From Cyanobium sp. Morenito 9A2 (lineage in GTDB: Bacteria; Cyanobacteriota; Cyanobacteriia; PCC-6307; Cyanobiaceae), in NCBI RefSeq assembly GCF_024345575.1, contig NZ_JAGQBJ010000006.1, positions 1 through 64,000 on the forward strand: a stretch of 64,000 bases of DNA, given 5' to 3'. Positions 21,858 through 23,893 of this stretch are shown in pieces (within the stretch, counting starts at the first letter, position 1; every line of letters starts with the position of its first letter). Made by a program: the position numbers and the translations under genes. The notes beneath the pieces were generated by a model. It did not search any database and was not told the origin of the DNA. It saw only the letters and a program-made list of their open reading frames with translations.

Positions 21858-22515
21858 ACCTGAGACCAGGCGCAGATCGCTGGGCTGACACTGCCATGCA
21901 GCCTGATGATCCGCGCAGCGAGCTGGGCACAGCTCGCAACGCGCATCTCTGCTTGATAGGTACTCATGCCAGCGAGCCAAGGCTGCCCCGCATGTGCGCG
22001 CCGCAAACGGATCACACCAAACCCGTCGAGACATACCTGCCAACCTGCCCCCTCTGCCAGGAAAGATGACGCCTCTCCATCCCGACCATTCCAAACACCA
22101 GGGGGCCTGATGGAATCGATCGATGCGTCCCTACAGCGAGACCGTCAAGGCTGATGTCCGCCGGCGGATGAGCCCGCCTAACCGCCAGAGCGTGGCGGAG
22201 ATTGCCGAGGAGCTGGGCATCCATGTGATCACCCTCTAAAACTGGCGCAAGACCTGGCGGCTGCAGGGGGAAGTGGTGCCCGCCACTCAGAAGGACCCTG
22301 AGGGTTGGGGACCGGCCGACAAGTTCACGGTGGTGCTGGAGACCGCCGGCATGAACGCCACAGAGCTCGGCGCCTACTGCCGCGAGCGGGGCCTGTTCCC
22401 GGAGCAGGTGGACCGCTGGCGCCAGGCCGCCCAGGATGCCAATGCGCAGCCGCTGCTGACGATGACCGAGCAGAAGGACCTCCAGAAGCGGCACCAGGCC
22501 GATCAGCGGGAGATC

Positions 22516-22542
22516 TAGCCGTAGGCTGCTCTGAAGGAGTAG
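22516..22542 (+). repeat. Miniature insertion, copy 1 (27 bases)
   Basis: The stretch begins TAGCCGTAGGCT and contains three in-frame stop codons. Removing its 27 bases joins DQREI directly to RLQQELRRKDKAL, as expected for the transposase coiled coil. It matches copy 2 at 21 of 27 positions. Confidence 0.65.
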
Positions 22543-22602
22543 CGGCTGCAGCAGGAGTTGCGCCGCAAGGACAAGGCCCTGGCGAAGGCGGCGGTGCTGC
22601 TG

Positions 22603-22629
22603 TAGCCGCAGGCTTCTGCGAAGCAGTAC
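22603..22629 (+). repeat. Miniature insertion, copy 2 (27 bases)
   Basis: It begins TAGCCGCAGGCTTCT and continues GCGAAGCAGTAC. It holds the small palindromes CGCAG-GCTT-CTGCG and GCTTC-TGC-GAAGC. Removing it restores ALAKAAVLL joined to ASKKIQAYW in frame. The first 15 bases are identical to copy 3. Confidence 0.75.
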
Positions 22630-22634
22630 GCCTC

Positions 22635-22641
22635 AAAAAAG
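22635..22641 (+). other. AAAAAAG slippery site for -1 frameshifting (IS3 orfA/orfB)
   Basis: AAAAAAG lies where the orfA frame (TCA AAA AAG) can slip by -1 into the orfB frame (CAA AAA AGA), as in the programmed frameshift that makes OrfAB in IS3 elements. The element is now inactive, so this is a relic. Confidence 0.55.
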
Positions 22642-23189
22642 ATCCAGGCCTACTGGGGCGAGGACGAGGGAGACTGACCTCTCCGGCCGATCGCCGCAAG
22701 GCCTTGGAGATCCTCGATGCCGCCGTGGCCGCCAGGGCACGGGCCCGTGCGGTGTCTGCATTGCTGGGCGTCGGGCTCACCACGCTGCAGCGCTGGCGGC
22801 GTCAGTTCGCGGGTGATGGGGACGGACTAGATCGCCGCCGCAGAGGCAGCCCCCGCCATGTGGCCCACCGCCTCAGTGAGGAGGAGCGCCAGCGAATCCT
22901 GCTCACCTGCAACCAGCCCGAGTTCGCGGCGCTGCCGCCGGTGCAGATCGTGCCGATCCTGGAGGATCGGGGCCTCTACATCGGCTCGGAGCGCAGCTTC
23001 TACCGGGTGCTCCATGCCCACGGCCAGGCCCACCGCCGCGGGCGGGCCCGTCCACCCCAGGAGCCAAGACCGGTGCCACGGCTGCAGGCCAGGGGGCCGA
23101 ATCAGCTCTGGAGCTGGGGCATCATCTACCTGCCCACCAGCGTCTGTGGCGTCTGGCTATACCTCTACCTGGTGATCGACGTCTGGAGC

Positions 23190-23228
23190 CCCCTACCTGG
23201 CCCTAGGCCAGCGTGCCGGAGGCACTAA
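23190..23228 (+). repeat. Double-hairpin miniature insertion (39 bases) in orfB
   Basis: Two tandem three-base-loop hairpins are seen: CTGGCC-CTA-GGCCAG (23197-23211) and GTGCC-GGA-GGCAC (23213-23225), followed by TAA. The transposase protein resumes immediately after. Unlike the three TAGCCG copies, this is a different sequence class. Confidence 0.7.
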
Positions 23229-23363
23229 GTCGTGGCCTGGGACGTGGCCGAGAGGGAAGACGCACAAATCGCCGCTGATCTGGTCAGCCGCGCGTGCCTG
23301 CGGGAGCGGATCAACAAAAGCCGGCCCCAGCCTTTGATCCTCCATGCCGATAACGGCAACGCC

Positions 23364-23385
23364 TAGCCGCAGGCTTCTCGCAGAG
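23364..23385 (+). repeat. Miniature insertion, copy 3 (22 bases)
   Basis: It begins TAGCCGCAGGCTTCT, identical over 15 bases to copy 2, then CGCAGAG. It follows HADNGNA and precedes a codon run for RAATLESRLEELG. Its length (not a multiple of three) explains the frame change in orfB. Confidence 0.75.
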
Positions 23386-23893
23386 TTGCGTGCCGCCACA
23401 CTCGAGAGCCGTCTGGAGGAGCTGGGAGACCTCAGATCCTTCTCCAGGCCGAGGGTGAGCAACGACAACCCCTACTCGGAGTCGCTGTTCCGCACGATCA
23501 AGTACCGGCCGGATTACCCCCGGCGGCCTTTCCGCAGCCAGGAAGAGGCCTGCCGCTGGGCCTGTGCATTCGTGGACTGGAACAGCCACAGGCACCGCCA
23601 CAGTTCCATACGGTTCGTGACGCCTGATCAGCACCACAGCGGTCAGGCTGTTGAACTCTGTCGTCACCGCGCTCTTGTCTACGAGCAGGCCAGCCAGAGA
23701 CATCTCTGCCGTTGGAGCCGCAGCACTCGCTGTTGGATTCAACCGGAGGTGGTCTGGATCAACCCGCCACCCTCAGAAAACGACATCACTCCAGCTCGGT
23801 TGATGATGGTCGCCTGATCGGCGACAGGGGCGTCATCTTTCCTGACAGCCACCGCATGCAGACAGCGTCCTGGCAGCAATCGCCCTGAGCCGA

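Follow-up and report, generated by a model that had tools for sequence, protein, structure and literature searches.

Small dispersed repeats (SDR) of 21-27 nt have reportedly been found in Nostoc, with heterocystous cyanobacteria as their hosts. They are said to form several families that share one fold, backed by compensatory changes, and to occur as nested copies; RNA intermediates have reportedly been proposed for them. Selfish palindromic DNA also lies in frame within protein genes in the case of the Rickettsia palindromic elements, which measure about 100-150 bp. SDR5 inserts into HIP1 between its third and fourth bases (PMC4390886). The mitochondrial double-hairpin elements of Allomyces are described as two tandem hairpins that are optionally present, with evidence of mobility (Paquin et al. 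2000, via PMC7218506). REP and REPIN sequences are small, dispersed, non-autonomous palindromes associated with RAYT (PMC3116915, PMC3733652), and group IIC (IIC-attC) introns insert after stem-loops (PMC7923331).

Here we analyze short modules inserted in a decayed transposase gene of Cyanobium sp. Morenito 9A2. The window, the whole stretch of DNA that was analyzed, spans 64,000 nt. In our view, each module is very likely one copy of a mobile, non-autonomous micro-element that measures about 25 nt and is built as a double mini-hairpin with GNA loops.

Module insertions in a transposase pseudogene

A preliminary description of the window had placed three copies of a module in one transposase gene. 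All three were present at exactly the coordinates it gave, with the letters TAGCCGTAGGCTGCTCTGAAGGAGTAG at 22516, TAGCCGCAGGCTTCTGCGAAGCAGTAC at 22603 and TAGCCGCAGGCTTCTCGCAGAG at 23364 (Table 1), and the observation of three extra modules is confirmed. The host insertion sequence matched the profiles HTH_32, HTH_29, rve (weakly) and rve_3, and a homolog of it (L161:9745-10149) matched HTH_Tnp_1. An additional TAA at 22238, unrelated to the modules, makes the host gene a pseudogene regardless of them.

Relatives of the host insertion sequence were collected by DNA search and aligned directly with the window. The alignments contained clean gaps of 24 nt at copies 1 and 2 and of 22 nt at copy 3, and relatives without these bases were found exactly at all three sites, as expected if the modules are extra DNA. 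The opposite outcome considered in the preliminary description, intact relatives carrying the same bases, was not the rule: most were empty at all three sites, copy 1 was confined to the window, and copies 2 and 3 were shared with few. Copy 1 disrupts orfA and lies in the frame that yields a stop (ATC|TAG); all aligned relatives are empty at its site (GAGATC|AAG/AAA). The copy 2 site is also filled in L069, L064 and, in degenerate form, L294, and is empty (CTG|ATC or CTG|ATG) in at least 15 relatives. Modules related to copy 3 occupy the same site in L058, L088, L285 and L294, and 14 aligned relatives are empty there (GCC|ATG). The three sites had thus been recognized correctly, but with net inserts of 24, 24 and 22 nt the 27-mers first proposed were too long; their final TAG/TAC is the host's next codon, usually with A changed to T.

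Pattern searches agreed with these borders. Allowing up to three mismatches, a 24-nt module pattern recovered copies 1 and 2 and no other stretch of the window, where 0.00 matches were expected (100 shuffles), and a 15-nt core with up to two mismatches recovered the three window sites only. Across the whole genome (3.10 Mb), the search that had been recommended returned 13 matches to the core with at most one mismatch, compared with 0 for the reversed control; all genome-wide module counts are from such pattern searches.

A fourth insertion, overlooked in the preliminary description, has a net length of +33 nt and is without counterpart in any of the 23 aligned relatives. It belongs to a second family (family B), with the consensus TAC-CTGGCC-GNA-GGCCAG-C-GTGGC-GGA-GCCAC-TA, about 34 nt long and with GNA-type loops. 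For family B, 13 copies were counted at several sites, the window's included. Each copy has a homolog lacking the insertion, and the stems of the family vary by compensation, as do those of the first family (family A). As judged from the alignments, two families with one common double-hairpin plan together account for four insertions in the pseudogene.

Table 1. Positions of the host, the inserted modules and the module-adjacent introns (the first five rows are in window coordinates)
Feature	Position	Strand	Basis
Host insertion sequence, IS3-like two-ORF layout, decayed	22121..23817, borders approximate	+	HTH orfA, rve orfB
Module copy 1, family A: T-AGCC GTA GGCT-G-CTCT GAA GGAG-T	22516..22540	+	alignment with relatives
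Module copy 2, family A: T-AGCC GCA GGCT-T-CTGC GAA GCAG-T	22603..22627	+	alignment with relatives
Module copy 3, family A, short second hairpin: T-AGCC GCA GGCT-T-CTC GCA GAG-T	23364..23386	+	alignment
Fourth insertion, family B: TAC-[CTGGCC CTA GGCCAG]-C-[GTGCC GGA GGCAC]-TA	23194..23227, left border within 23190-23194	+	alignment
Intron-module loci	L159:2025-3939, L162, L072, L062, L161, L177, L178, L183, L187, L191, L193, L197		

A covarying double mini-hairpin

The 141 family A copies that we assembled occupy 62 distinct insertion sites, an upper count of independent events because same-site copies across genomes may have been inherited with the insertion sequence. Their consensus, T-[AGCC GNA GGCT]-T-[CTGC GNA GCAG]-T, describes two tandem mini-hairpins in 25 nt. 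Individual copies measure 23-27 nt, and the second stem has 3, 4 or 5 pairs, with 4 pairs (net +24) at 60 of the 62 sites.

The fold was assessed in two collections. In a set of 138 sites, for which the left hairpin alone was fixed in the search pattern, the right arms were fully paired in 113, compared with a mean of 67 and a maximum of 81 in 1000 shuffles. Among 57 distinct sequences, 93.4% of the pairs in the double hairpin were standard, and 33 cells were altered on both sides. The covariation score was 0.225, whereas shuffles gave 0.086 and none of the 500 came as high; in every slid register it was far lower. Compensated variants occur in both helices: AGCC/GGCT, AGGC/GCCT and AGAC/GTCT in the first, and CTGC/GCAG, CTCC/GGAG and CCGC/GCGG in the second. 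Each loop has an invariant G and A, and the spacer Ts are likewise among the invariant letters; this is due in part to the collection pattern, which fixed these letters. The folding energy of the modules is by itself unremarkable and uninformative; the double-hairpin structure rests on covariation. Overall, recognition of the modules by their structure is strongly supported.

Copy 2 had been described as a single palindrome, CGCAG-GCTT-CTGCG. As a functional fold, this candidate was rejected in favor of the two adjacent hairpins, since its covariation equaled that of shuffles and its central pair was broken in 42 of the 57 sequences.

Insertion site and product

Target statistics were drawn from 54 independent comparisons of filled and empty sites. 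At the replaced base (+1), 50 of the 54 empty sites have A, and 50 of the 54 filled sites have T. Just before this base, 47 of the 54 empty sites carry C or G, and 51 carry C or T one position further upstream; A or G follows it in 41. These sites thus share a target sequence, something the preliminary description had proposed looking for, and the rule is (C/T)(C/G)|A|(A/G)G, i.e., YS|A|RG. In most cases the A disappears or becomes the module's terminal T. The plain reading of the alleles is that one A would be exchanged for a 25-nt T...T unit; the resulting net gain of 24 nt keeps the host gene in phase. Replacement of A by T is not absolute, as A is kept at a few filled sites (L003, L142 and nested copies) and copy 2 departs from the expected change (ATC to TAC).

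Filled and empty homologs can be 97-98% alike (L105/L075 and L121/L142), and filled and empty copies also coexist inside one genome (L160/L158 in G242; also L042). From such alleles we infer that the modules are mobile. The earlier proposal of a mobile miniature palindrome family therefore stands as to mobility and palindromic structure, with 54 filled and empty comparisons and the direct alignment behind it, but the notion that this one pseudogene was specially targeted gives way to 62 sites.

The module's own loop (CG|A|AG) matches the target motif, and a nested module (TAGGCGAAGCCTTCTCGNAGAG) lies in the right-hairpin loop in the same arrangement in L095 (minus strand, 2001), L102 (minus strand, 189) and L112 (plus strand, 2001). 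We also considered a pre-formed hairpin as the target and discarded it, because pairing across the target was not consistent.

Distribution

Exact matches to the consensus came from 70 contig stretches of GTDB genomes, assigned to Synechococcus, Cyanobium, Vulcanococcus or unnamed cyanobacteria; the sole exception in naming was one GTDB record labeled Microcystis elabens. With up to one mismatch, the family A pattern was present in 89 of 400 genomes of the bacterial family, and none of 131 genomes from cyanobacteria outside that family contained an exact match to the general module pattern. Spread by viruses was considered and set aside, a single IMG/VR contig having matched.

Reading frames and host genes

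A stop codon, TAG, arises in one of the six frames of the module, and the other five are open, encoding an 8-residue peptide. Frames were taken from codon usage and are approximate: 24 sites were estimated as sense phase 0 (in-frame TAG), 15 as sense phase 1 and 12 as antisense phase 2, the rest being unclear. The clear calls include 13 sites in sense phase 0, 8 in sense phase 1 and 5 in antisense phase 2. In the non-stop copies examined, the frames read through the module as VAEGFCAAV or YCFAEACGY, so the stop in the window copies is a matter of phase. Carrying a stop had been taken as a defining trait of the modules, and this does not hold, since many copies sit in open frames. Similarly, a stop codon as the element's purpose was rejected, because several phases are occupied and the examined non-stop copies are open.

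Most copies lie within genes and fewer between them. Among the representatives scanned, the hosts were mostly transposases (Transposase_mut, rve, DDE_Tnp_1, DDE_3, DUF772 and IS66); others were HNH-HIT, Uma2, nucleotidyltransferase, HsdR-like helicase, DUF4236 and AbrB-like genes. Fourteen copies (L109, L063, L131, L153 and others) occupy the same codon in an HNH(-HIT) gene family, all open and forming an 8-residue insertion, and several family B modules lie in sequence resembling these HNH(-HIT) genes. In an HsdR-like helicase (L107:671-3526), a long frame runs through the module, which is preceded by 443 aa and itself begins the remaining 651 aa. In L100 (2001) and L025 (1501), probably intergenic DNA holds modules, or degenerate forms of them, beside terminator-like sequence with GACACGGGGCGCCC.

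A group II intron beside the modules

At about 12 distinct sites, one lineage of group II introns (GTGCCACGAGTCAAA...), identified by RF01999 and RF00029 and encoding a TIGR04416 reverse transcriptase, starts immediately next to a module (Table 1). Along the intron strand, the sequence on the 5' side is module-A-Y, followed by TTGTGCC, and each of the two complete units is 1,914 nt long. A stem-loop lies directly upstream of the insertion point at all distinct sites but L195. At L195, two intron copies stand in direct tandem, the second beginning immediately where the first ends with CCCGGC. By our reading of a short translation, the L162 intron site lies in a putative PIN-type gene. The helices of intron-adjacent modules differ between sites yet stay compensated, and a scenario in which the intron carries the module along was rejected because the same lineage adjoins modules with different helices. 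Insertion after a stem-loop is known from group IIC introns, and the modules thus appear to serve this intron as landing pads.

Proposed explanation and its alternatives

In the explanation that we favor, the fold of the micro-element would be recognized by a trans-acting enzyme or an RNA-based process, most likely as single-stranded DNA. The DNA form is our guess and draws on the loops, C(GNA)G being an unusually stable DNA mini-hairpin. Copies would then spread further by hitch-hiking inside insertion sequences, which probably carry them onwards.

Hitch-hiking might even be the whole story, with a few old insertions amplified solely through their carriers and no mobility of their own; transposases are the majority of hosts, and many sites recur among related insertion sequences. 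We regard this as improbable, given that the 62 sites lie in unrelated genes, HNH, Uma2, nucleotidyltransferase and HsdR-like genes among them, and that the sites share a target motif and include nested insertions. Retroposition, in which a reverse transcriptase, possibly the one encoded by the adjacent group II intron, would copy an RNA, is an unlikely source of the copies, if one to be taken seriously: a single intron lineage abuts modules at about 12 sites, and RNA intermediates are the proposal mentioned above for SDR. However, the RF01999 intron was not found in the window's own genome (G000) or in 9 other carriers, and the module, its helices varying beside one intron lineage, is not carried along.

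Palindromes of the REP/REPIN type are moved by RAYT, a Y1 HUH transposase, and resemble the modules in size, palindromic form and dispersal; the module also starts with TAG, giving GTAG after a G. A RAYT partner had been suggested, but our search found Y1_Tnp in 2 of 16 carrier genomes. It was missing in the other 14, which include G000 and the single-contig carriers G024, G054, G110, G136 and G302. C and G precede TAG about equally often, a single imperfect palindrome with GTAG on its 5' side is not what the modules show, and most copies are intragenic, all of which makes such an origin very unlikely. We give still less credence to translational bypass, as in phage T4 gene 60 or the mitochondrial byp elements, by which the ribosome would skip the module and the genes would be functional. 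In gene 60, a stop after an in-frame codon is followed by a hairpin, and in the window TAG likewise directly follows an in-frame codon and precedes hairpins. Yet the copies occur in both orientations and several phases and not in the sense orientation only, their flanks do not repeat matching take-off and landing codons, and the host gene in the window is decayed and contains another stop.

As candidate mobile elements, the double mini-hairpin modules rank with the smallest DNA units whose mobility is well supported. Their sharp insertion rule, covariation-backed structure, well over 100 copies matched by empty sites in sequenced picocyanobacteria, and lack of an obvious transposase make the question of how tiny repeats move directly testable. 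With a net length that is usually a multiple of three and five of six frames open, they suggest how selfish DNA survives in coding genes, and they also suggest how mobile hairpins may provide landing pads for a group II intron. A broader reading is possible, though we hold it short of probable: the modules may form a class of micro-transposons in bacteria, 25-35 nt long and with two GNA-loop mini-hairpins, whose movement, by an undescribed route not driven by RAYT, would swap one A for a frame-neutral cassette (+24/+33), and which would act as structure-recognized homing sites for a group II intron lineage.

Comparison with known systems

The REP/REPIN sequences share with the modules their small size, dispersal, palindromic form and non-autonomous nature, but most module carriers are without RAYT, and the modules are tandem double hairpins that lie within genes. 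The Rickettsia palindromic elements, too, are palindromes that have entered protein genes in frame, but they span about 100-150 bp, against the 25 nt of a module. The module-adjacent intron resembles group IIC introns in inserting directly after a hairpin, and differs in that the stem-loop is a mobile micro-element and not a terminator or attC.

Closer parallels are offered by two systems, compared here by description. Like the double-hairpin elements of Allomyces, both module families have tandem hairpins, are optional at homologous sites and carry evidence of mobility; unlike them, they reside in a bacterial chromosome, have GNA loops and replace a defined target base. With SDR, the likeness, again by description, extends to size (for family A), a cyanobacterial host, a compensated fold, families sharing that fold, nesting and precise insertion. 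The differences are that family B is longer, at about 34 nt; that, in GTDB genomes, exact matches to the modules are limited to Cyanobiaceae-type picocyanobacteria (Synechococcus/Cyanobium/Vulcanococcus-type); that their target is YS|A|RG and not HIP1; that they lie mostly in transposase and other coding genes, with a net length usually a multiple of 3; and that a group II intron uses them. By this analogy, the modules would work like SDR and the double-hairpin elements, which are their nearest known kinds.
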